Shown here in pieces: positions 39,388-49,780 of a stretch of DNA of 64,000 nucleotides. The stretch's first letter is position 1; each line of letters opens with the position of its first letter. The stretch is from Cyclobacteriaceae bacterium (GTDB lineage: Bacteria > Bacteroidota > Bacteroidia > Cytophagales > Cyclobacteriaceae): positions 930,001-994,000 of the forward strand of contig JAHBTX010000001.1 of assembly GCA_019638395.1 (NCBI GenBank). Direction: 5' to 3'. The translations under genes were made by a program, and so were the position numbers. The notes beneath the pieces were generated by a model. The model saw only the letters and a program-made list of their open reading frames with translations. It did not search any database and had not been told where the DNA came from.

Positions 39388-41820
39388 TTACTGAAACTCT
39401 ACCCTCATCCTTCTAATCCTGTCTTCCAATTTCTCTGAAGTCAGTTTTTCTCTTGTGCGATCTACCATAATAGGAAAAGCAAAGGGCGTTGGTTTTTCAG
39501 GTTCAGTAATAATAATTTTTTGTTGGGCAATGCGATTCAATGCCTGGCGCAAACGCGCTTCTTCCAATTGAAAATCCATAACTTCTTCAAATGCTTGTTG
39601 CAACAACAGGTTGTGCGATTCATACTCATGAAACACATTGAAGAACAATTGCGAAGATGATTGCAGGTGCCGTTCTTTTATTTTTTGGCCGGGCAAGCCT
39701 TTAAAAATTAAACCTGAGATGGCGGCAATATCGCGGAATTTTCGTTTCGCCATTTCAGTAGCATTGATACTCGCCTGGATGTGTTTCAACAAATCATCCG
39801 CGCCCAACACGTTGGTTTCAATGGCTTCATAAATCGGTATCTCCTGATCGGATAACAATTCAAAACCATAATCATTCATGGCAATGGAAAATGTAATGGG
39901 TTGTATTTGCGCGATGCGATACGCTACCAATGCCGCCATACCTTCGTGTACTGCCCGACCTTCAAACGGATACATCAGCACATGATACCCCTCGTTGGTA
40001 TGAAAGTATTCAACCAGAAACTCATTTTTCTTCGGTAAATGAGAACGGTCGCGCTGCAAATGCATAAGTGGTTGTAAAAACTTCATCTCCGTATCTGATT
40101 CCATTCCGGTTGCCGCTTCATCTATCTTTACCCGAATCATTTCACTGAGCTGCGATGACAACGGCATGCGTCCGCCTTGCCACGAAGGCACCTTACCGGT
40201 CTTCTTTTTTGATTTGCGCACCTGTGCCTCCATCTCTTTAATGCGCACCAATTCAAGACTTTGACCCGCAAACCAAAACACATCGCCAATCTTTAAGCTG
40301 GAGATAAAATATTCTTCAATCGTACCCAGAAATTTTCCGCTAACGTATTTTACGTACAACAAGCTATCGCCTACAATCGCACCAATCGATAAGCGATGCT
40401 TAAAAGCAATGCGTTTGTTCTCCACTTTAAACAGTCCATTCTCTACAACTACTTTTCGGTATTCATTGTAAGCAGTTAATGCTTCACCTCCTGTTGTAAT
40501 AAAATGGAGTAACCAACTCCACTCTTCATCGGTTAAGGAAGCATAACTAACTGTACTGCGCACTTCCTCTAAAATTTCTTCCTGTCGAAATCCATCCGAC
40601 ACGGCCAACGTAATTAAATATTGAATCAACACATCGAACGACCGGAGGTAGGGCAACCGATCTTCTACAATATTCCGATGCATGGCCTCGCGCAAGGCCG
40701 CACCCTCGGTTAGCTCAAGCGAGTTGGTGGGAAGAAAATAAATTTTACTAACTGCACCGGGTTGATGTCCGCTTCTGCCCGCGCGTTGTAAAAATCGGGC
40801 AACGCCTTTGGGGCTGCCCACTTGTATTACGGTTTCTACCGGGCGAAAATCAACACCGAGATCCAAACTAGAAGTACAAACAACAGCTTTCAGTTTACCG
40901 GCATGCAGTTGGTCTTCTACCCAATCGCGAAGTTCCTTGCTGATGGAACCGTGGTGCATGGCAATAACACCTGCCAGTTCGGGTGCGGTATCCAACATTT
41001 TCTGATACCAGATTTCGGCAAACGATCGAGTATTGGTGAAGATCAACGTGCTGTTGCTCTGCTTCACAATCGGAATAACTTTATCGAGCAACTGAATACC
41101 CAGGTGCCCCGACCACGGCATGCGCTCCACCTCATCGGGAAAGATGGAGACAATTTCAACCTGCTTGCTGATGTTAGCCTTTACAACTTTGATTTTACGT
41201 TCAGTAAAAAAATTACCCAACAAAATTTGCATGGACTGTTCCATGTTGCCAATGGTGGCTGAGATACCCCAAATGCGAAGCTGTGATGAAATAGTTTTTA
41301 AGCGCGAAAGTGCAAGCTCCATCATTACGCCTCGTTTAGAACCCATCAACTCGTGCCATTCATCTACTACAATAGTGCGCAAATCGGCAAAGTAATCGGC
41401 ATACCCTTTTTGCGAAATGAGCAGGTGTAAACTTTCTGGCGTGGTGATTAAAAAGTCGGGCGGAGTTTCTTTTTGTTTGGCCCGCTCGCGGGTACTGGTA
41501 TCGCCACTACGCACGCCCACGCGCCAGGTTGGTTGTAAATCGGTTACCGCGCGGTTGGCCGAGATTTCAATTTCTTTGGCTAATGCCCGGATGGGTGTAA
41601 TCCAAATTGCTTTGGGGCCCTTTGCCCTTTTTGTTGCCGGCTCCTCCAGCACAATCGGAATCAGCAACGAATAGGTTTTACCACTGCCGGTGGGTGCATT
41701 TACAATACCGTGGTAATTAGCCCACAGCGCTTGCCAGGCCTCGGTCTGAAACGGAAATGGTTTCCAGCCACGAGCTTCAAACCAGGTAATACCTCGCTCC
41801 AGCTTGCCATTCATTGCCAT
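39388..41820 (-). CDS. Ligase-associated DNA damage response DEXH-box helicase
   Basis: The 810-residue Lhr-core superfamily 2 helicase contains Walker A APTGSGKTYSLLIP, VVDEWHELMGSKRG (DEWH), SATIGN, LIFTNTRSFAEIWY, VVCTSSLDLGVDF and QRAGRSGHQPGA, followed by the Lhr winged-helix and C-terminal regions. Start is ATG at 41820. Relatives unwind DNA 3'-5' within the LigD-type repair set shared with PdeM. It is divergent from the light-regulator gene with only 62 nt between starts, so both promoters share the same DNA, and light-linked control of a repair helicase is possible (inference). Confidence 0.92.
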   Translation of the reverse strand: MAMNGKLERGITWFEARGWKPFPFQTEAWQALWANYHGIVNAPTGSGKTYSLLIPIVLEEPATKRAKGPKAIWITPIRALAKEIEISANRAVTDLQPTWRVGVRSGDTSTRERAKQKETPPDFLITTPESLHLLISQKGYADYFADLRTIVVDEWHELMGSKRGVMMELALSRLKTISSQLRIWGISATIGNMEQSMQILLGNFFTERKIKVVKANISKQVEIVSIFPDEVERMPWSGHLGIQLLDKVIPIVKQSNSTLIFTNTRSFAEIWYQKMLDTAPELAGVIAMHHGSISKELRDWVEDQLHAGKLKAVVCTSSLDLGVDFRPVETVIQVGSPKGVARFLQRAGRSGHQPGAVSKIYFLPTNSLELTEGAALREAMHRNIVEDRLPYLRSFDVLIQYLITLAVSDGFRQEEILEEVRSTVSYASLTDEEWSWLLHFITTGGEALTAYNEYRKVVVENGLFKVENKRIAFKHRLSIGAIVGDSLLYVKYVSGKFLGTIEEYFISSLKIGDVFWFAGQSLELVRIKEMEAQVRKSKKKTGKVPSWQGGRMPLSSQLSEMIRVKIDEAATGMESDTEMKFLQPLMHLQRDRSHLPKKNEFLVEYFHTNEGYHVLMYPFEGRAVHEGMAALVAYRIAQIQPITFSIAMNDYGFELLSDQEIPIYEAIETNVLGADDLLKHIQASINATEMAKRKFRDIAAISGLIFKGLPGQKIKERHLQSSSQLFFNVFHEYESHNLLLQQAFEEVMDFQLEEARLRQALNRIAQQKIIITEPEKPTPFAFPIMVDRTREKLTSEKLEDRIRRMRVEFQ

Positions 41821-41882: not shown

Positions 41883-42752
41883 ATGGGTAAGTATTCGATT
41901 AAAGAACTGGAAAAACTTTCGGGCATAAAAGCCCATACCATTCGCATTTGGGAAAAACGCCACCAACTTGTAAGTCCGCAGCGTACTCAAACCAATATCC
42001 GCTTTTATTCCGATGATGATCTTAAAAAGATTATCAACGTTTCGGTGCTGAATAACCACGGAGTAAAAATCTCCAAGATTGTAGGTTTGAGTCTTCCTGA
42101 TCTGAACCAGAAAGTATCGGAGCTGAGCGAAGCCCAAAACAGCGTTGAAATTTACATCGATCAATTGGTTTTAGCCATGATCGACATGGAAGAAGAAAAG
42201 TTCGAAAAGATACTTTCAAACCTGATTCTGAAGTACGGATTCGAAAAAACCATCGTAGAAATAGTTTACCCGTTTCTGGAGAAGATTGGCGTGCTGTGGC
42301 TTACCAACAATATTACTCCCGCGCAGGAACATTTTATCTCTAACCTGGTGCGTCAAAAACTTATAGTGGCCATTGATGGTTTACCACTTGCACCTAAAAC
42401 TGCTCCCCGCATTTTGTTGTTCCTACCCGAAAACGAATTACACGAACTGGCGCTGCTTTTCTATTATTACCTGGCGAAGCAAGCAGGTTATCGCACGTAT
42501 TACCTCGGCCAAACCGTACCGTACAAAGATTTGAAATCGGTTTATGAAGAGCATCAGCCACACATGTTGGTAACATCGCTTACCAGTGGGCCATCGCCAG
42601 CAACTATGCCCAAGTACCTGGCCCGTTTAAGTGAAGATTTTGCCGCTGCTAAAATTTTGATTTCGGGGGGGGCCTTGAAAAAAGCACGATTTGAACCTGC
42701 TTCCAACATTAACTTCTTCTCCAACGCACTGGATTTCAAGCGCTTAATTTAG
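41883..42752 (+). CDS. MerR-family B12-dependent photoreceptor repressor, CarH/LitR-like
   Basis: The 289-residue protein has an N-terminal MerR helix-turn-helix (YSIKELEKLSGIKAHTIRIW and TNIRFYSDDDLKKI), a helical bundle and a Rossmann B12-binding domain. The light-sensing signature W-x9-E-H is present (Trp139, Glu149, His150 in WLTNNITPAQEH), and the lower-ligand motif is ENELHELA (His187). The GG of ILISGG follows. In CarH, adenosylcobalamin in the dark lets tetramers repress DNA, and light releases it. One variation: Ala190 replaces the Gly usual in E-x-H-x-x-G. ATG 41832 would add 17 non-MerR residues. It opens the carotenoid cluster, exactly where litR/carH lies in other bacteria. Confidence 0.9.
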   Translation: MGKYSIKELEKLSGIKAHTIRIWEKRHQLVSPQRTQTNIRFYSDDDLKKIINVSVLNNHGVKISKIVGLSLPDLNQKVSELSEAQNSVEIYIDQLVLAMIDMEEEKFEKILSNLILKYGFEKTIVEIVYPFLEKIGVLWLTNNITPAQEHFISNLVRQKLIVAIDGLPLAPKTAPRILLFLPENELHELALLFYYYLAKQAGYRTYYLGQTVPYKDLKSVYEEHQPHMLVTSLTSGPSPATMPKYLARLSEDFAAAKILISGGALKKARFEPASNINFFSNALDFKRLI

Positions 42753-42760
42753 TAATTTTT

Positions 42761-42856
42761 TGTTTAATCTTTGATTAAATTATTTAGACAAAATATTTTG
42801 ATATCAGTTTGTCATCGCTATTTTTGTTTAACAATTCAAACTAAACGTTAAACACA
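42761..42856 (+). promoter_or_regulatory. Promoter and operator region of the ECF sigma gene
   Basis: TTTG (42797-42800) lies 18 nt before TATTTTTG (42819-42826), a full Bacteroidota promoter. Around it are three inverted repeats: TTTAATC-TTT-GATTAAA (42763-42779); GACAAA/TTTGTC (42787-42792, 42808-42813) straddling the -33 box; and TGTTTAAC/GTTAAACA (42825-42832, 42847-42854), spanning the predicted start of transcription. The core TGTTTAA occurs at 42761, at 42825 and inverted at 42848. It is the most likely target of the adjacent CarH-like repressor. Confidence 0.65.
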
Positions 42857-43360
42857 ATGACAGCGATAGAATTCAGTAAGCAATTGGCCATGCTTCGGCC
42901 TACGCTCAGAACGTTTACACGTAGATTTACTACCGACCGTGATGAAAGCCTGGACCTGGTTCAGGATACTATACTAAAAGCACTGACCTACCGCGACAAG
43001 TTTAGGGAAGACACCAACCTGAAAGGTTGGTTATTCACCATCATGCGCAACACTTACATCAACAGCTATCGCAAAAACCAACGTGCAAGAACTTCGCACG
43101 ATGACACGAAAGAACTATACTATTTGAATGTGGAAGACACGCACACCTTTAACCAACCGGAAGGCAGCGTAGAGTTTAAGGAAGTGTGGAGGAATGTGAA
43201 CAATCTGAAGGACGAATTATTAATACCCTTCAAAATGCACACAACCGGGTATAAATACCACGAAATTGCCGAGCACCTAAACATTCCAATTGGTACTGTT
43301 AAGAACAGAATTTTCCATGCCCGAAAAGAGATCCAAAAAAAATTAACCGGCTATCAGTAA
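42857..43360 (+). CDS. ECF-family RNA polymerase sigma factor
   Basis: The 167-residue sigma factor has region 2 (DESLDLVQDTILKALTYRDK, then LKGWLFTIMRNTYINSYRK) and region 4 (TTGYKYHEIAEHLNIPIGTV then KNRIFHARKEI) helix-turn-helix. No anti-sigma gene lies beside it, which is unusual for ECF sigmas but fits control by the upstream repressor, as in the LitR-LitS and CarH systems. It is placed between the photoreceptor gene and crtI and probably drives the crt genes. There are 52 nt to crtI. Confidence 0.92.
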   Translation: MTAIEFSKQLAMLRPTLRTFTRRFTTDRDESLDLVQDTILKALTYRDKFREDTNLKGWLFTIMRNTYINSYRKNQRARTSHDDTKELYYLNVEDTHTFNQPEGSVEFKEVWRNVNNLKDELLIPFKMHTTGYKYHEIAEHLNIPIGTVKNRIFHARKEIQKKLTGYQ

Positions 43361-43380
43361 CTGCAAGCGAAACCAGGTTT

Positions 43381-43413
43381 ATGAAATCGGGTTTTATGCT
43401 TAAACTCACGTAA
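43381..43413 (+). CDS. Possible 10-codon leader ORF before crtI
   Basis: An ATG-started frame encodes MKSGFMLKLT and stops in TAATG, overlapping the crtI ATG by one base. It could couple translation to crtI, or be chance. Confidence 0.2.
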   Translation: MKSGFMLKLT

Positions 43414-44885
43414 TGAAGAAAGTAGCCGTAATTGGAGCAGGATTTTCGGGGCTGGCTGCAGCAAGTTGTTTGGCAAAAGAAGGTTATGAAGTAACATTGT
43501 TTGAAAAGAACAGTTTGCCTGGAGGCCGTGCACGCAAATTTGAAGCAGAAGGTTTTATTTTTGATATGGGCCCGAGTTGGTATTGGATGCCCGATGTGTT
43601 CGAGAAGTATTTTGCGCATTTTGGTAAAAAGCCATCTGATTATTATACGCTTGAGCGGCTGAGTCCCTCCTACCGTATTTTTTATGGTAAAGATGATTTC
43701 CTCGATATTCCTGCAGGAGTAGAAGCACTTTGCAAGTTGTTTGACGAATTGGAACCCGGAAGCTCAAAACAATTGCTTCAGTTTCTGGAAGAAGGCAAAT
43801 ACAAGTATGATATAGGAATTAATGAACTGGTTTATAAACCTGGAATTTCCCTTAGCGAATTAATGGATGCCCGATTGATAGCTGGAGTTTTTAAACTTCA
43901 TGTCTTTCAATCCATATCGCAATACGTTCGCAAATTTTTCAAACATCCACGCATCATTCAATTGTTGGAGTTTCCGGTTTTATTTCTCGGAGCCACAGCA
44001 CGAAAAACTCCTGCACTCTACAGTTTAATGAATTATGCCGATATGGCTTTGGGTACCTGGTACCCAAAAGGCGGAATGTATAAAATTGTAGAGGGCATGA
44101 CTACACTGGCAAAAGAACAATGCGTAACATTTCAATTCAACAGCGAGGTAACGCAATTCAATTTGTTGAACAATGCCATACACGAGGTGGTTGTAAATGG
44201 AGCGGAGTATCAATTTGATTATGTGGTTGCCAGTGCTGATTACAACTTTATCGAACAAAAGCTATTACCACCAACCCATCGCCACTATTCCGAATCATAT
44301 TGGGAGAATAGAAACATGGCGCCTTCCAGTTTGATTTTTTATTTAGGTCTGAATAAAAAAATTGATGGATTGTTGCATCATACCTTATTCTTTGATGAAG
44401 ACTTCGGGTTACATGCACGCGAGATTTATGAAAATCCTCGATGGCCAACTGCACCTCAGTTTTATGTTTCGTGCACCTCGCAAACAGATCCAACCGTAGC
44501 ACCAGCAGGATGCGAGAATATTTTTATACTTGTACCAGTGGCACCCGGCTTACCCGATGATACTGCCACCCGCGAAAAATATTTTAACCTTATACTGGAT
44601 CGCTTCGAAAACATAATGGGTCAACCTATACGATCGCACATAGTTTTTAAAAGAAGTTATGCCCATACCGACTTTATTGGCGACTATCATGCTTTTAAAG
44701 GAAATGCCTATGGGCTTGCCAATACGCTTAAACAAACGGCCAATCTTAAGCCCGGTATCTTAAACAAAAAGGTTTCAAATCTGTTTTATACTGGGCAACT
44801 TACCGTGCCGGGACCGGGTGTTCCACCTGCTTTAATATCCGGACAGGTAGTAGCACGCGAATTAATAAAGCGCGATAAAAATTAG
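43413..44885 (+). CDS. crtI: Phytoene desaturase
   Basis: The 490-residue FAD enzyme converts phytoene to lycopene in successive dehydrogenations. The dinucleotide-binding start VAVIGAGFSGLAAASCLAKE is intact, followed by LFEKNSLPGGRARKFEAEGF and DMGPSWYWMPDVFEKYF. The C-terminal carotenoid oxidoreductase end TGQLTVPGPGVPPALISGQ is also present. It is a membrane-associated enzyme of normal length. It is the first crt gene after the ECF sigma, and phytoene synthase follows after 57 nt, so both are likely in one operon. Confidence 0.95.
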   Translation: MKKVAVIGAGFSGLAAASCLAKEGYEVTLFEKNSLPGGRARKFEAEGFIFDMGPSWYWMPDVFEKYFAHFGKKPSDYYTLERLSPSYRIFYGKDDFLDIPAGVEALCKLFDELEPGSSKQLLQFLEEGKYKYDIGINELVYKPGISLSELMDARLIAGVFKLHVFQSISQYVRKFFKHPRIIQLLEFPVLFLGATARKTPALYSLMNYADMALGTWYPKGGMYKIVEGMTTLAKEQCVTFQFNSEVTQFNLLNNAIHEVVVNGAEYQFDYVVASADYNFIEQKLLPPTHRHYSESYWENRNMAPSSLIFYLGLNKKIDGLLHHTLFFDEDFGLHAREIYENPRWPTAPQFYVSCTSQTDPTVAPAGCENIFILVPVAPGLPDDTATREKYFNLILDRFENIMGQPIRSHIVFKRSYAHTDFIGDYHAFKGNAYGLANTLKQTANLKPGILNKKVSNLFYTGQLTVPGPGVPPALISGQVVARELIKRDKN

Positions 44886-44942
44886 ATTTTGGTTAATAAT
44901 GATTGTAAAGCGACAGTTTAATTAAATTGGTGGTTGATCAGC

Positions 44943-45782
44943 ATGAGTAAAAATCTTTACGATTCCGTTTCGCTTACATGTAGTAAGTTAACTACCAGGG
45001 CTTACAGCACTTCCTTCTCGCTGGGCATCCAATGCCTGAAAAAAGAATTGCAAGGGCCTATCTATTCTATTTATGGTTTTGTACGCTTTGCCGATGAAAT
45101 TGTGGATACATTTCACGATTTTGACAAGGCTACTTTGTTAAGCCGATTTCGTGAAGATACCTATCGGGCTTTAGAAGAAGGCATTAGTCTGAATCCTATT
45201 TTAAACAGCTACCAGCAAACCGCCAATCACTTTAATTTTGAACGAGCCCTTACCGATCAGTTTCTGAAGAGTATGGAAATGGATTTACATCTTACTTCAT
45301 ACGATCAAAAAGGCATTGAAGATTATATTATGGGTTCGGCAGAAGTAGTAGGGTTAATGTGTTTACGGGTGTTTTGCGAAGGCGATGAAGCACAGTATCA
45401 AAAGCTGAAACCAGCGGCCATGAAACTTGGATCAGCATTTCAAAAAATTAATTTTTTACGCGATCTCAATGCCGACTTCAATGGTATGGGGCGCACGTAT
45501 TTTCCTGGAATTGATTTAACTAATTTTGACGAGGCCAGTAAATCTAAAATTGAAGCCGACATTGCCGAAGATTTTCATGCCGCCTATCTTGGAATTAAGC
45601 AGCTACCCCGCACGGCACGTTTTGGTGTTTACGTGGCATATTTGTATTACCTGGCCTTATTTAAAAAAATCAAGAACACGCCAAGCCACGTGGTATTACA
45701 AAACAGAATAAGAGTACGCAACCGCCACAAACTTTCCATTCTTGCATACTCATTTGTGAAGCATCAACTAAACATGATTTAA
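44943..45782 (+). CDS. crtB: Phytoene synthase
   Basis: The 279-residue squalene/phytoene synthase-family protein joins two geranylgeranyl diphosphates into phytoene. The first aspartate-rich motif YGFVRFADEIVDTFHDFD and the second FLRDLNADFNGMGRTYFP are both intact, with AYSTSFSLGIQCL near the N-terminus. A TTG three codons upstream (44934) is not needed; ATG at 44943 is used. The stop overlaps the idi start in TAATG. The GGPP-producing crtE is not in the window, so substrate must come from a distant gene. Confidence 0.94.
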   Translation: MSKNLYDSVSLTCSKLTTRAYSTSFSLGIQCLKKELQGPIYSIYGFVRFADEIVDTFHDFDKATLLSRFREDTYRALEEGISLNPILNSYQQTANHFNFERALTDQFLKSMEMDLHLTSYDQKGIEDYIMGSAEVVGLMCLRVFCEGDEAQYQKLKPAAMKLGSAFQKINFLRDLNADFNGMGRTYFPGIDLTNFDEASKSKIEADIAEDFHAAYLGIKQLPRTARFGVYVAYLYYLALFKKIKNTPSHVVLQNRIRVRNRHKLSILAYSFVKHQLNMI

Positions 45783-46300
45783 TGGAAGAGGTTATTTTAG
45801 TTGATGAGCAAGACCGTGAAATCGGAACGATGGAAAAACTGGCTGCACATGAGCAAGGTAAACTTCATCGTGCGTTTTCTATACTGATCTTTAATAGAAA
45901 AGGCGAGTTAATGTTGCAACAGCGGGCTCTTGATAAATATCATAGTGGTGGTTTGTGGACCAATACGTGTTGCAGCCATCCGCGACCGGGCGAAACAGCG
46001 ATTGAAGCCGGCAGAAGAAAATTAATCCAAGAGATGGGATTCGATTGCGAACTGACCTATTCGCATAAGTTTATTTATAAGGTTGAATTGGATAACAACC
46101 TGATTGAACATGAATGGGATCATGTATTAATTGGATCGTATAATGGAGAACCGGCCCTGAATCCGGAAGAAGCCTTAAGCTGGAAGTTTATGGCATTAGA
46201 TGCAATTCAGAAAGATGTGTCCGTTAACCCACAAAACTACACGCAATGGTTTAAAATAATTTTACAACAGCCACAACTTAATAAGCTTCAAATTGCGTGA
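45782..46300 (+). CDS. idi: Isopentenyl-diphosphate delta-isomerase, type I
   Basis: The 172-residue Nudix-fold enzyme interconverts IPP and DMAPP. Motifs: LHRAFSILIFNRKGELMLQQ, LWTNTCCSHPRPGE with the catalytic Cys, and the Nudix-like AGRRKLIQEMGFDC followed by the metal-binding EHEWDHVLIG. Length is typical of bacterial type I. Placing it after crtB with a one-base overlap keeps precursor supply matched to carotenoid demand. Its own stop overlaps the next small gene in TGATG. Confidence 0.93.
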   Translation: MEEVILVDEQDREIGTMEKLAAHEQGKLHRAFSILIFNRKGELMLQQRALDKYHSGGLWTNTCCSHPRPGETAIEAGRRKLIQEMGFDCELTYSHKFIYKVELDNNLIEHEWDHVLIGSYNGEPALNPEEALSWKFMALDAIQKDVSVNPQNYTQWFKIILQQPQLNKLQIA

Positions 46301-46476
46301 TGTTTAAATTTTTTAAATCTGATCCATTAAAAAAATTAAAAGCACAGCATGCTCGCATGTTAGAAGAAGCCGTACAAATACAACGTTCTGGCGATCTGAA
46401 AAAATATGCCTTTCACATGGAGGCCATAGATAAGATTGAAAAACAACTTGAAGACTTACAAAAATCCGGTCGCTGA
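46300..46476 (+). CDS. DUF6435/Lacal_2735-type small protein (58 aa)
   Basis: A 58-codon frame starts with the ATG that overlaps the idi stop and encodes MFKFFKSDPLKKLKAQHARM followed by a helical stretch ending in QLEDLQKSGR. The MF-x-FFKSDP-xKKL start and the alternating helix match the small DUF6435 (Lacal_2735) family that often sits beside photolyase and carotenoid genes in Bacteroidota. The function is unknown; it is too short for most gene callers' default view. Its end overlaps or abuts the photolyase frame. Confidence 0.8.
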   Translation: MFKFFKSDPLKKLKAQHARMLEEAVQIQRSGDLKKYAFHMEAIDKIEKQLEDLQKSGR

Positions 46477-47773
46477 TCTGATCGATTCTTCCACCACAGT
46501 ATGCTGGTTTAGAAGAGATTTACGATTACAGGATAATGCTGCATTGTATCGTGCTTTAAAGGGTAATAATAGCGTTGTGTGCATCTTTATATTCGACACC
46601 AACATACTCGATAAACTAGAAGATAAAACCGATGCGCGGGTTGAGTTTATTCTGGAAGCATTAACCAATATGCAAACACAATTAGTTGAACTCGGAAGTT
46701 CATTAGTGGTATTTCGGGGTAACCCCCTTGCTATTTTTAAAGGTATAAATCCGAAAGCTGTTTACACCAACCACGATTACGAACCTTATGCCCACCAACG
46801 AGATGAAGCAGTAAAGAAAATTCTGGAGCAAAAAGGTGCAACCTTCCGAACTTTTAAAGACCAGGTAATCTTTGAGAGAGATGAAGTGTTAAAAGATGAT
46901 GGAAAGCCTTACACCGTTTTTACACCTTATAGTAGAAAATGGAAATCGCTACTCAAACCATTTTACCTTAAATCATATCCAACCGAAAAATACTTCGGCT
47001 CCTTTAAAAAGCTAAAACCAGTTGCGCTACCAACGCTTAGCGAAATTGGTTTTGAAACTGCGGGTATTCTGTTTCCGGAGCGGGTGATTAAACAATCGGT
47101 TATTGAAAAGTATGATCAGCAACGCAACTTTCCGGCTATAGCCGGCACTACCAAACTAAGTGTGCATTTGCGTTTTGGTACAGTAAGCATTCGCAAGCTG
47201 GCCCAGGTTGCTTTAAAAAAGAATGAAGCGTGGTTAAATGAATTAATCTGGCGTGATTTCTATCACATGATTCTCTGGCACTTTCCACAAGTAGAAACCA
47301 AAGCCTTTAAAACAGCCTACGATGCTATTGAGTGGCGCAACGATGCCAATGAATTTAAAGCCTGGTGCGAAGGCCGTACCGGCTACCCAATTGTAGATGC
47401 CGGCATGCGCGAACTCAACTCAACCGGTTTTATGCACAACCGCGTGCGCATGATTGTAGCCAGCTTTCTTACAAAACATTTATTAATTGATTGGCGCTGG
47501 GGCGAAGCCTACTTCGCAAAAAAATTACTTGACTTTGATCTGGCTGCCAACAATGGCGGCTGGCAATGGGCAGCAGGTTCGGGTTGCGATGCGGCCCCAT
47601 ACTTCCGGGTATTTAATCCGGAACTTCAAACTGAAAAATTCGACCCTGAATTTAAGTACATTAAACAGTGGGTGCCGGAGGTTGGTACATCAAAATATCC
47701 CAAACCAATTGTTGATCATAAGTTTGCCCGCGATCGGGTACTGAAAGTGTACAAAGAAGCGCTTGGAGGATAA
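46436..47773 (+). CDS. phr: Deoxyribodipyrimidine photolyase (cryptochrome/photolyase family)
   Basis: The enzyme repairs UV-made pyrimidine dimers using FADH- and blue light. The N-terminal antenna domain starts VCWFRRDLRLQDNAALY. The FAD domain includes WRDFYHMILWHFP, EGRTGYPIVDAGMRELNSTG, HNRVRMIVASFLTKHLLIDW and DLAANNGGWQWAAGSG. All are class I photolyase hallmarks. No ATG precedes the conserved core in this frame: candidates are TTG at 46436 or 46448, or CTG at 46478 just after the upstream stop, so the start is uncertain. The product is about 431-445 residues. It fits a light-induced cluster. Confidence 0.93.
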   Translation: MKNNLKTYKNPVADLIDSSTTVCWFRRDLRLQDNAALYRALKGNNSVVCIFIFDTNILDKLEDKTDARVEFILEALTNMQTQLVELGSSLVVFRGNPLAIFKGINPKAVYTNHDYEPYAHQRDEAVKKILEQKGATFRTFKDQVIFERDEVLKDDGKPYTVFTPYSRKWKSLLKPFYLKSYPTEKYFGSFKKLKPVALPTLSEIGFETAGILFPERVIKQSVIEKYDQQRNFPAIAGTTKLSVHLRFGTVSIRKLAQVALKKNEAWLNELIWRDFYHMILWHFPQVETKAFKTAYDAIEWRNDANEFKAWCEGRTGYPIVDAGMRELNSTGFMHNRVRMIVASFLTKHLLIDWRWGEAYFAKKLLDFDLAANNGGWQWAAGSGCDAAPYFRVFNPELQTEKFDPEFKYIKQWVPEVGTSKYPKPIVDHKFARDRVLKVYKEALGG

Positions 47774-47813
47774 TTGCCAAAAACTCTTTGCCACCAAGCC
47801 TGTTATTAACTAC

Positions 47814-48278
47814 ATGAAGCTTTATACAATTTCGCGAAAGCAATTTTTACCCATATCATTAAACGAGGCGTGGGCATTTTTCTCTACACCTCGGAATCTC
47901 GCTAAAATAACACCCGCTGAAATGGGCTTTCATATCCTCTACGTAAGTGGTGGCGAAAAGACTTATGCCGGACAAATTATCCGGTATAAAGTGCAGGTAT
48001 TTCCCGGCATTAAAATGCATTGGGTTACTGAAATTACACACGTAAACGAACCATTCTATTTTGTAGATGAACAGCGGTTTGGGCCTTATGCGCTGTGGCA
48101 TCATCAGCATCGCTTCAAAGAAGTACCGGGTGGGGTGGAAATGGTTGATGAAGTAAACTATGCAATACCTTTAGGATTGTTAGGTCGGTTTGCCAATGCA
48201 CTTTTTGTTGGCCGCGAGGTTAATCGTATTTTTGACTATCGCTTTAAGATTTTAGAAGAATATTTTAAAAAGAAGTGA
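47814..48278 (+). CDS. SRPBCC-family ligand-binding protein
   Basis: The 154-residue protein has the START/SRPBCC helix-grip pattern: ISRKQFLPISLNEAWAFFST, NLAKITPAEMGFHI, WVTEITHVNEPFYFVDEQR and a C-terminal helix (FANALFVGREVNRIFDYRFK). Such proteins bind hydrophobic ligands and are frequently found in carotenoid clusters, where a carrier or chaperone role for the pigment has been proposed only by location. A TTG at 47763 would add 17 residues overlapping photolyase; ATG at 47814 fits the domain. The crtZ start follows 1 nt after the stop. Confidence 0.8.
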   Translation: MKLYTISRKQFLPISLNEAWAFFSTPRNLAKITPAEMGFHILYVSGGEKTYAGQIIRYKVQVFPGIKMHWVTEITHVNEPFYFVDEQRFGPYALWHHQHRFKEVPGGVEMVDEVNYAIPLGLLGRFANALFVGREVNRIFDYRFKILEEYFKKK

Positions 48279-48279
48279 C

Positions 48280-48774
48280 ATGGACTGGAAAGTAATTTTG
48301 TTTTGTTCGTTAATAACCATCGGCACTTTTCTATTCTGGGAGTTTGTGGCCTGGTTTACGCATAAATATGTTATGCACGGTTTCTTATGGGTATGGCACA
48401 AATCGCATCACACCGTGCACGATCACTCATTGGAAAAAAATGATTGGTTTGCGGTTGTGTTCAGTATTCCTTCAATTGGCATTTTTTATTATTTCAGTTT
48501 GGTTAAGTATAATCCCTACATGCTGGCCGTTGGGCTCGGCATTTTTTGCTATGGATTGTTCTACCTGATCTTTCACGATATTATTGTACACCAACGCTTA
48601 AAGTGGCGACCTGAAAAAAGAAGCAAGTATTTGCAACGGATGATTCACGCACATTACATTCATCACGCCAAACACACCAAAGAAGACTGCGAAGCATTTG
48701 GATTTCTATACGCACCAAAAAAATACGAACCTGGTAAATTCGTGTTCAAACAAAAGCGACAAGAAACGCAATAG
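48280..48774 (+). CDS. crtZ: Beta-carotene hydroxylase
   Basis: The 164-residue membrane di-iron hydroxylase adds 3-OH to the beta-ionone rings, giving zeaxanthin. The histidine motifs are in place: HKYVMHGFLW, HKSHHTVHDH, FHDIIVHQRL and HAHYIHHAKHTKED. Four short membrane segments are predicted. It lies between the SRPBCC gene and the lycopene cyclase gene. A ketolase (crtW) is not present here, so zeaxanthin, not astaxanthin, is the expected product. Confidence 0.92.
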   Translation: MDWKVILFCSLITIGTFLFWEFVAWFTHKYVMHGFLWVWHKSHHTVHDHSLEKNDWFAVVFSIPSIGIFYYFSLVKYNPYMLAVGLGIFCYGLFYLIFHDIIVHQRLKWRPEKRSKYLQRMIHAHYIHHAKHTKEDCEAFGFLYAPKKYEPGKFVFKQKRQETQ

Positions 48775-48816
48775 AAGTGGTTACTTTAAAGTTTGATTAA
48801 CCAAAAAAAGATTCGC

Positions 48817-49539
48817 TTGAAAGATCGTTACGTTTACCTGGCTGTCGATTTTTTCTCCATCATTTTCCCGTTTCTCTTCAGCTTTTATTCGAAAGCAAAT
48901 TTTTCAAAGAAGTGGCGTTACTTATGGCTGGCGATATTGGCTCCGGCAATATTCTTTATTGTGTGGGATGAATGGTTTACGCAAATGGGCGTGTGGGGAT
49001 TTACTCCACGGTACTTAACTGGTTTACACATTGGTTCATTGCCTATTGAGGAGATTCTGTTTTTCATTTGTATTCCATATGCCTGTGTTTTTACCTACGA
49101 AGCAGTGAATTACCTGATCAAGTGGCGACTTAATCAAAAATACACCAATCTGATTACTGACTTGTTAATCTTCGCCATGCTTTTGGTTGGTGGCATCAAT
49201 ATCGAAAAATGGTACACAAGTGTAACGTTTATTTTATTGGCAATATTTCTTACACTTCATCGCTGGGTATGGAAATCGGACTATCTCGGTAAATTCTATT
49301 TCGCTTTTCTATTTATTCTTATCCCCTTCTTTATAACCAATGGGATACTTACCGGTACCGGTATTGAAGAACAAGTAGTGTGGTATAACGATGCCGAGAA
49401 TTTAGGCATACGCATGGGCACCATACCCGTGGAGGATACTTTTTATGGCATGCTGTTGTTGATGATGAACGTATCCCTCTTTGAATACCTGCAAAGAAAA
49501 AGGGGCACGCGGCCCCTTGATTTCTTTTGGAAAGCTTGA
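48817..49539 (+). CDS. Lycopene cyclase, fused CrtYc/CrtYd (CarR-domain) type
   Basis: The membrane protein of about 241 residues contains two CrtYc/d-like halves, each with the acidic motif: LPIEEILFFICIPY and IPVEDTFYGMLLLM. The duplicated membrane segments begin YVYLAVDFFSIIFPFLF. It cyclises lycopene to beta-carotene and feeds CrtZ. No ATG exists near the start: TTG at 48817 (MKDRYVYL) matches family N-termini, and TTG at 48793 is the alternative. A strong hairpin lies inside the last codons (49500-49518). It is the last gene of the light/carotenoid cluster. Confidence 0.9.
   Translation: MKDRYVYLAVDFFSIIFPFLFSFYSKANFSKKWRYLWLAILAPAIFFIVWDEWFTQMGVWGFTPRYLTGLHIGSLPIEEILFFICIPYACVFTYEAVNYLIKWRLNQKYTNLITDLLIFAMLLVGGINIEKWYTSVTFILLAIFLTLHRWVWKSDYLGKFYFAFLFILIPFFITNGILTGTGIEEQVVWYNDAENLGIRMGTIPVEDTFYGMLLLMMNVSLFEYLQRKRGTRPLDFFWKA
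49493..49527 (+). terminator. Terminator-like hairpin overlapping the lycopene cyclase 3' end
   Basis: AAGGGGC (49500-49506) and GCCCCTT (49512-49518) pair perfectly around ACGCG, extended by AAAGAAA/TTTCTTT. It lies within the coding region, about 20 nt before the stop, and has a T-rich right arm. Confidence 0.6.
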
Positions 49540-49540
49540 C

Positions 49541-49780
49541 TTAGGCTGTAACCAATTCGGCTGCTTTCTTTTCTTTTTTAGCTTTAGGAGCTTTCAGTTT
49601 TTTAAGTTCTTTCTTCATTTGTGCGGCAACAACTGCTGCCAAACGCTTTGACGATTTTTCAATTAATCGTTCGGCCTTCTTTTTAGATTTTGATACGCCC
49701 AATGTTTGTACAGTCTGGTGCAGCGAATCGGCTAACAGCATCCTGATTTCTTTTTTTCCCTTAAGCACTAGTTTTTCCAT
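49541..49780 (-). CDS. Small Lys/Ala-rich basic protein (79 aa)
   Basis: The 79-residue protein is strongly basic and helical: SKSKKKAERLIEKSSKRLAA, KKELKKLKAPKAKKEKKA. The C-terminal Lys-Ala-Pro tail resembles histone-H1-like or nucleoid-binding tails, which occur in Bacteroidota, but I do not recognise a family. It converges with the lycopene cyclase gene with only one base between the stops. Confidence 0.72.
   Translation of the reverse strand: MEKLVLKGKKEIRMLLADSLHQTVQTLGVSKSKKKAERLIEKSSKRLAAVVAAQMKKELKKLKAPKAKKEKKAAELVTA

Follow-up and report, generated by a model that had tools for sequence, protein, structure and literature searches.

How could carotenoid and photorepair genes be switched by light through a putative B12-binding regulator without the histidine that Thermus CarH uses in its light state? 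This question is raised by ten genes at 41883-49539 in 64,000 nucleotides of DNA from a Cyclobacteriaceae bacterium (Bacteroidota), the whole of which is called the window below (positions 930001-994000 of contig C1, in a genome of 4.78 Mb and 27 contigs). A preliminary description had read them as a cluster under a CarH/LitR-type B12 photoreceptor, in which the repressor is released, a sigma factor is made, and the pigment genes follow. Every gene named there is present, most of them with Pfam or NCBIfam support, and inspection of the open reading frames (ORFs) placed all ten, not just nearly all, on the + strand. The light switch itself is mostly supported by motifs, fold, an adenosyltransferase gene and an operator-like repeat at a probable promoter, whereas the chain through the sigma factor, as written there, is not. 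In our judgement, with a probability of roughly 0.7, a CarH-like repressor acts on two inverted-repeat operators, is released by light without the bis-histidine (bis-His) arrangement, and controls one promoter for the whole operon. The elements of the control region are the following.

41883-42752, + strand: CarH-like MerR/B12-binding regulator, 289 aa (Pfam MerR_1 and B12-binding_2; motifs; PDB and fold matches)
42761-42790, no strand assigned: distal operator-like inverted repeat, one mismatch to TGTTTAA-N16-TTAAACA, kept in relatives
42797-42800, + strand: possible -33 box TTTG of the Bacteroidota type, by position only
42819-42826, + strand: TATTTTTG, which fits the -7 box TAnnTTTG and overlaps the proximal repeat
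42825-42854, no strand assigned: proximal operator-like inverted repeat, exact TGTTTAA-N16-TTAAACA
42857-43360, + strand: extracytoplasmic function (ECF) sigma factor, 167 aa (Sigma70_r2, Sigma70_r4_2)

According to this proposal, the regulator would bind adenosylcobalamin in the dark and occupy the repeats at 42761-42790 and 42825-42854, the proximal of which would overlap the -7 box and the probable start site of a single promoter serving sigma-crtI-crtB-idi-DUF6435-photolyase-SRPBCC-crtZ-crtY. Green or blue light would break the Co-C bond, and the regulator would change its shape or oligomeric state without a cobalt complex of the Thermus bis-His type, and then leave the DNA. The primary sigma factor could then transcribe the whole operon, yielding a zeaxanthin-type carotenoid and photolyase, while the ECF sigma factor, made alongside, would switch on further genes.

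The repeat was defined on 102 intergenic regions between a gene for a homologous regulator (carH) and a sigma factor gene, 94 of them unique, with expected numbers taken from dinucleotide-preserving shuffles. At up to two mismatches in 14 bases, head-to-head pairs of TGTTTAA and TTAAACA occurred 140 times at spacer 16 (1.45 expected) and 29 times at spacer 17 (2.1 expected) in the unique regions; spacers 5-9 were likewise above chance (22-39 against about 2). A spacer-16 site was present in 84 of the 94 regions, with two or three sites in 50, and missing from ten (L073, L076, L091, L126, L128, L130, L131, L132, L135, L136). Among 56 distances between successive sites, 24 measured 62-64 bp and 18 measured 43-45 bp. 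TAnnTTTG, which we take to be the Bacteroidota -7 consensus with TTTG as the -33 box, lay at offsets of -6 (23 times), 14 (19), 4 (11) and 15 (9) from the proximal site in the 84 regions. The window belongs to the -6 class, and the sigma start codon follows at 42857. Taken alone, its two sites are not significant, as 25 of 100 shuffles reached two at 2 mismatches; the case for the repeat is made by the exact match, its place and the relatives, not by the window statistics alone.

The repeat also tracks carH. In the genome of the window, the proximal repeat is the sole exact site, and three sites have one mismatch, namely the distal repeat, C2:12582 and C12:262469. Within the window's own genus (36 genomes), 16 of the 23 genomes with carH and 1 of the 13 without it contain an exact site; for all 58 related genomes, the figures are 29 of 40 and 2 of 18 (Fisher p 4e-4 and 1.5e-5, both too small by some amount, given the kinship of the genomes). 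The reversed pattern served as control in the 36 genomes and was seen in 2 of 23 with and 4 of 13 without carH. By hand count, 20 of the 24 exact sites in the genus adjoin carH. For the phylum, sites with at most one mismatch and a spacer of 16 or 17 were counted in an interval reaching from 300 bp upstream of carH to 700 bp downstream of it; 103 of the 153 loci with enough flank had one, against 1.2 expected. A search of the window's own genome for a wider regulon with a relaxed operator (2 mismatches) was uninformative, with 73 matches versus 78 for the reversed pattern.

Published CarH operators consist of 11-bp direct repeats in tandem that share a TnnACA core (PMC9304148, PMC8156234). Tandem direct repeats were considered as the operator here and found unsupported, both by the strict published consensus and by the relaxed core. 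In the 94 regions, head-to-head TnnACA pairs at offset 24 numbered 130 (0.9 expected). Same-direction pairs numbered 10 at offset 11 (1.9 expected), 16 at 13 (1.6), 34 at 21 (1.9) and 7 at 22 (2.1), and tail-to-tail pairs 20 at offset 20 (1.2). Judged by eye, the offset-21 excess stems from the promoter-box TTTG beside the right half-site, and the offset-20 excess from two sites 44 bp apart. The sequence pattern suggests that the operator probably has the same half-site core head to head, in a layout that differs from the described ones. This layout is still to be taken with caution, because an inverted-repeat reading once proposed for M. xanthus CarA was later revised to direct repeats (PMC9304148). 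No description of this operator was found in the literature searched, which left most subscription journals outside its coverage.

Since the repeat lies upstream of the sigma gene in 84 of the 94 regions and its binding by CarH is a prediction, it might belong to another regulator or to the sigma factor. Each half-site TAAACA, however, matches TnnACA, the core known from CarH operators (PMC9304148), it follows carH across genomes (29 of 40 versus 2 of 18), and it stands before crt genes outside the defining set. In 16 genomes, a carH-sigma pair had no crt genes in the covered stretch, and the idea that such sediment Bacteroidales are carotenoid-free was dropped, as a crtI-family gene scored above the cut-off elsewhere in 14 of the 16 (all but G360 and G361). 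Eighteen stretches around these unlinked crtI genes were searched, from 13 of the 14 genomes (G362 not included). Six stretches from six genomes (L201, L203, L204, L205, L207, L208) showed a site just before the crt operon, five of them exact and one with one mismatch; the operon in question is crtI-crtB or, in L208, SRPBCC-crtI-crtB-crtZ-crtY. The other 12 stretches, drawn from six of the remaining seven genomes and from second stretches, showed none. Other spacers from 8 to 25 gave three matches in all in the same 18 stretches, and many of the site-free stretches have a two-crtI layout. A further sample comprised 40 phylum stretches, 18 of which repeat loci of the first set; it held 23 spacer-16 and 11 spacer-17 sites, and the remaining spacers between 10 and 22 contributed six in all. 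Eighteen of the 40 have crtI after carH without an intervening sigma gene, and ten of these 18 have a site in the gap (L213, L217, L219, L222, L223, L224, L225, L235 and L249; L250 with spacer 17). Seven of the nine spacer-16 cases lack any sigma match in the stretch. We therefore regard an owner other than the CarH-like regulator as very improbable.

The same sites bear on the role of the sigma factor. The grouping of carH, sigma and crt genes is not due to chance: among 80 named carH loci searched with the cluster proteins by tblastn, 62 have a sigma match on the same strand downstream of carH (49 of them within 400 bp); the corresponding figures are 43 for crtI, 44 for crtB and 44 for crtZ. 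A relay is conceivable in which the regulator controls the sigma gene only and the ECF sigma factor transcribes the crt and photolyase genes from promoters of their own. The frequency of the carH-sigma arrangement would suit it, as would the position of the only exact operator of the genome before the sigma gene. So would the crt stretches of 7 of the 13 genomes above, which are operator-free, and two loci (L041, L043) in which genes on the opposite strand separate the photolyase operon from the rest and no full operator precedes it. The relay is opposed by the operator that the unlinked crt operon has in 6 of 13 genomes and by the ten of 18 carH-crtI stretches with an operator and no sigma gene between. 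Moreover, the coding strand of the 52-bp sigma-crtI gap gave no terminator-like match in a pattern search, so that the sigma gene and the pigment genes would appear to share an operon, and no shared sigma-type promoter motif was seen by eye upstream of crtI or of the split-off photolyase genes. We consider the relay unlikely.

Given the operators at unlinked crt operons and in carH-crtI gaps, it is thus likelier that the regulator acts on the crt genes themselves, which are probably repressed directly and not only through the sigma factor. The preliminary chain of repressor off, sigma made, then pigment genes is not supported as written, as crt genes carry operators of their own. The sigma factor is likelier a parallel output alongside crt, which may add to pigment control but would not be needed for it. 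Its gene is flanked by carH and crtI with no anti-sigma gene between, and it has 14 weaker matches in its own genome at E 1e-5, the best with 39% identity.

Some related loci show further genes beside these elements. In L041 and L043, TGTTTAAAC was noticed by eye within 200 bp upstream of both split-off photolyase operons, possibly an overlapping pair of half-sites. In L091 (11793-12878), 6-pyruvoyl tetrahydropterin synthase and then GTP cyclohydrolase I directly follow the carH-linked sigma gene, before which no operator was found; in L096 (5543-6247), GTP cyclohydrolase I does so. As folE is light-induced under a class II LitR in Pseudomonas putida (PMC9758184), the analogy hints at a shared pterin branch in the light response.

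Is the regulator equipped to bind cobalamin? It scores 51.4 bits with MerR_1 (PF13411) and 43 bits with B12-binding_2, and 20.4 bits with the B12-binding domain (Rossmann part), which is under the Pfam cut-off of 32.1. The W-x9-EH signature claimed in the preliminary description is present as WLTNNITPAQEH at residues 139-150 (W139, E149, H150). Compared with the B12 motif D/ExHx2G/P-x41-SxT/V-x22-27-GG (PMC9304148), the protein reads E185-x-H187-x2-A190, x41, S232-x-T234, x27, G262-G263, with H187, within E-x-H, as the lower-axial His and Ala190 as the sole misfit. From the light signature of CarH-like proteins, GxxW, EH, GxxH and GxxxP (PMC11796333), GxxW, EH and GxxxP fit. Across 132 unique homologues (140 loci), W139 is conserved in 131, E149 in all 132, and H150 and H187 in 129 each; these four residues are nearly invariant, as would be expected if cofactor binding were under selection. 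The best PDB sequence match is Thermus CarH. An AlphaFold2 model built from 50 sequences (mean pLDDT 89.9) had full-length Thermus CarH as its top Foldseek match (E 4.9e-16, TM about 0.57, a value held down by a different placement of the domains), and its cobalamin domain reached TM 0.75-0.80 by target length against the solved Thermus domains. The genome also encodes a cobalamin adenosyltransferase family protein (PF01923, 200.7 bits, cut-off 24). An alignment excluding cobalamin binding had been named as one possible refutation; sequence and predicted fold do not oppose such binding and are compatible with it, short of proof. At least 591 relatives are encoded in the genome collection, and the closest named regulator among the matches listed comes from a Cyclobacteriaceae metagenome-assembled genome (MAG; 82% identity).

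The residue after the Trp deserves separate treatment. In Thermus CarH, this His is the upper cobalt ligand in the light (PMC10442372), and it is present in many myxobacterial CarH proteins (PMC9304148). The window regulator has Leu140 at this position. A survey of 154 homologues unique over the last 230 residues found W-x9-EH in 150 (the exceptions being L138, L139, L143 and L221). In these 150, the Trp is followed by Gln in 95, by Leu in 30, by Thr in 6, by His in 3 and by other residues in 16. The bis-His residue is hence absent in 147 of the 150 homologues, other phyla being compared through the literature alone. Variation at this position is in print, with Arg in CtMerR, Gln in SasPcob and Tyr in AbDPcob, and CtMerR still shifts from tetramer to monomer in the light (PMC11796333). 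The need for a bis-His switch in light release of the CarH type is unsettled, and two reports on the Thermus variant H132A disagree, the later tetramer result contradicting the earlier one (PMC10442372).

These substitutions could be taken to mean that the regulator is B12-independent and CarA-like, its cobalamin pocket a relic and another signal (redox or a partner protein) in control. The absence of the bis-His residue, an Ala where the motif has Gly and the weak Rossmann score in Pfam are in line with this, and pocket decay does occur in the phylum: homologues L138, L139 and L143 (the same genes as L236, L237 and L234) have lost EH and the lower-axial His, as if a B12-independent CarA-like form had arisen in Bacteroidota too. 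None of these three has an operator nearby, however, while L221, with E-Q for E-H, does. CarA is without the Trp (PMC9304148), which is present here as Trp139, relatives in which Arg or Gln takes the place of the His remain light-responsive (PMC11796333), and near-invariance of the four pocket residues is hard to reconcile with a relic. A B12-independent regulator is, in our view, improbable at this locus.

Several observations nevertheless weigh against a cobalamin-dependent light switch of the proposed kind. In the regulator, Ala190 stands for Gly/Pro in E-x-H-x2-G/P, and Asn184 replaces Gly in GxxH, as it does in 40 of the 132 homologues; the NCBIfam CarH equivalog NF052513 scores 90.5 bits, against a cut-off of 400. 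H132A Thermus CarH is mostly still tetrameric in the light (PMC10442372), and loss of the His could therefore mean poor light release. On the side of the operator, no site was found at 50 of the 153 carH loci at the stringency given above for that count, in the crt stretches examined from 7 of the 13 genomes with unlinked crtI, or within 150 bp of the gap in 8 of the 18 carH-crtI stretches, even at 2 mismatches. Finally, the literature found contains no report of DNA binding, B12 binding or a light response for this group.

The remaining genes of the operon were assigned as listed.

43413-44885, + strand: crtI, phytoene desaturase family (NCBIfam CrtID equivalog, 737 bits, cut-off 640; crtI_fam)
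44943-45782, + strand: crtB, phytoene synthase family (PF00494, SQS_PSY)
45782-46300, + strand: idi, isopentenyl-diphosphate isomerase type 1 (PRK03759, 153 bits, cut-off 127; TIGR02150 above cut-off)
46300-46476, + strand: DUF6435 protein, 58 aa (PF20027, 73 bits, cut-off 26.9)
46436-47773, start uncertain (TTG), + strand: DNA photolyase/cryptochrome family protein (PF03441, FAD_binding_7; PF00875, DNA_photolyase)
47814-48278, + strand: SRPBCC-like protein (as read in the preliminary description, plus recurrence in related loci)
48280-48774, + strand: crtZ-like carotene hydroxylase (histidine motifs, position in the cluster)
48793-49539, + strand: lycopene cyclase, fused CrtYcd type (PF18916, Lycopene_cyc, two stretches; TIGR03462, two stretches)
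49500-49518, both strands: terminator-like hairpin at the operon end, pattern match only

The most likely start of crtB is ATG 44943, and that of the SRPBCC-like gene is ATG 47814. The photolyase frame has no ATG ahead of the domain; TTG 46436 or 46448 would serve, so that the start overlaps the 3' end of the DUF6435 gene. Against TIGR03556, the photolyase scored 409.5 bits, under the model cut-off of 884.6. For the SRPBCC-like protein, no Pfam match was obtained even at E 10 and no NCBIfam match at 0.01. The sole Pfam match of the crtZ-like protein was DUF1639 at chance level (E 0.15), with no NCBIfam match at 0.01; its histidine motifs are those which we take to mark carotene hydroxylases. 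A profile search of the genome for CruF (PF04240), as a test for acyclic hydroxylated carotenoids, found none, which makes a zeaxanthin-type product likelier, although the NCBIfam name of crtI, 'bifunctional phytoene desaturase/3,4-desaturase', does not suit this simple reading.

The pairing of DUF6435 and SRPBCC proteins pointed out in the preliminary description holds in that both are in the operon. DUF6435 adjoins the photolyase in all three of the 80 loci where it was detected, and thus looks linked to the photolyase rather than to pigment. The SRPBCC protein gave a tblastn match in 9 of the 80 loci, seven of them within a crt-photolyase cluster, and is the first gene of the repeat-preceded crt operon in L208.

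Some neighbours and variants were noted in passing. On the minus strand of the window, a large gene that reads as helicase-like (39388-41820) diverges from carH, with a match there in 9 of the 80 named loci, and a lysine-rich ORF of 79 aa (49541-49780) converges on the operon two bases from the cyclase stop, with no Pfam family above cut-off. In L040, a photolyase-related protein (DPRP, PF04244; 16161-17636) is inserted after the photolyase in the same cluster, and L044 carries a similarly sized protein at that position. Upstream of carH in L098, L100 and L114 stands a gene of one family, assigned a fasciclin domain by Pfam in L114, and the operator lies ahead of this gene. Some algal fasciclin proteins bind carotenoids, and by analogy this gene may encode a light-induced carotenoid carrier. 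L079, from a MAG named Chryseobacterium gleum, combines carH, a one-mismatch operator and crtI-crtB-hypothetical-idi-crtZ-crtY with no sigma gene. A light-pigmented Chryseobacterium has been reported without car or lit genes (PMC7064467), and a CarH-like gene may, by this analogy, have been overlooked there.

Beyond this operon, we see an even chance that Bacteroidota have B12 photoreceptors that form a large class of their own, whose members leave DNA without bis-His, read a head-to-head operator TGTTTAA-N16/17-TTAAACA, often doubled, and spread the signal through a sigma factor. On that reading, doubling at 44 or 63 bp would place the copies roughly on one helix face, and therefore suggests dimers or a pair of dimers and not the tetramer of Thermus on direct repeats. 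The co-expressed ECF sigma factor would then carry the light signal to a second regulon. Native proteins nearly all without the His would make the bis-His question testable, and the operator could serve to search many Bacteroidota genomes for light regulons, given at least 591 encoded relatives. Regulator and operator are also candidates to explain light-induced pigment in strains with no recognised regulator, and Bacteroidota genetics could gain green-light switches from the system.

Among known systems, CarH of Thermus thermophilus and Bacillus megaterium (class I LitR) shares with this regulator the MerR domain, the four-helix and Rossmann cobalamin domains, W-x9-EH, the lower-axial His and a guarded carotenoid promoter. 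It differs in the His that the Thermus protein has after the Trp, which is Leu here, in its tandem 11-bp direct repeats as opposed to a predicted head-to-head operator with a 16-bp spacer, and in an operon that is not headed by an ECF sigma gene. In the strict sense, the protein falls outside CarH: it scores under the NF052513 cut-off, has no bis-His residue, has a predicted operator of another layout and departs from the B12 motif at one position; it nevertheless probably works like CarH. In Streptomyces, the B12-type LitR lies beside an ECF sigma gene, litS, and crt genes, and the sigma factor directs crt transcription. The gene types are thus alike, whereas direct repression of crt is likelier here.

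CtMerR of Chloracidobacterium thermophilum, a tetramer in the dark and a monomer in the light, is likewise CarH-like without the bis-His residue (Arg); it comes from another phylum, and its target DNA is not described in the available part of the source (PMC11796333). PplR1 and PmlR2, class II LitR proteins of Pseudomonas, also have a paired-repeat operator with two sites per promoter, and the P. putida light regulon also includes a photolyase, besides folE. Their operator is TGTACA-N12-TGTACA, however, class II proteins have the four-helix bundle only, and PmlR2 is under a LOV protein (PMC9758184). Our regulator is not of class II, since its model aligns over about 200 columns with the cobalamin domains of Thermus CarH, Rossmann part included. 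From the same phylum come the merR-rpoE-crt cluster of Echinicola (PMC8683446) and a flavobacterial MerR/B12-crt cluster (PMC6974559), with the same gene types in partly the same order; the available parts of these papers hold no analysis of operator, regulon or cofactor pocket, and the word 'light' is absent from the main text of the former. The gene arrangement and the variation after the Trp are therefore already in print for other strains and proteins. Judged by sequence, the regulator and its operator appear to form a variant characteristic of Bacteroidota, within a known kind of light-switch operon.

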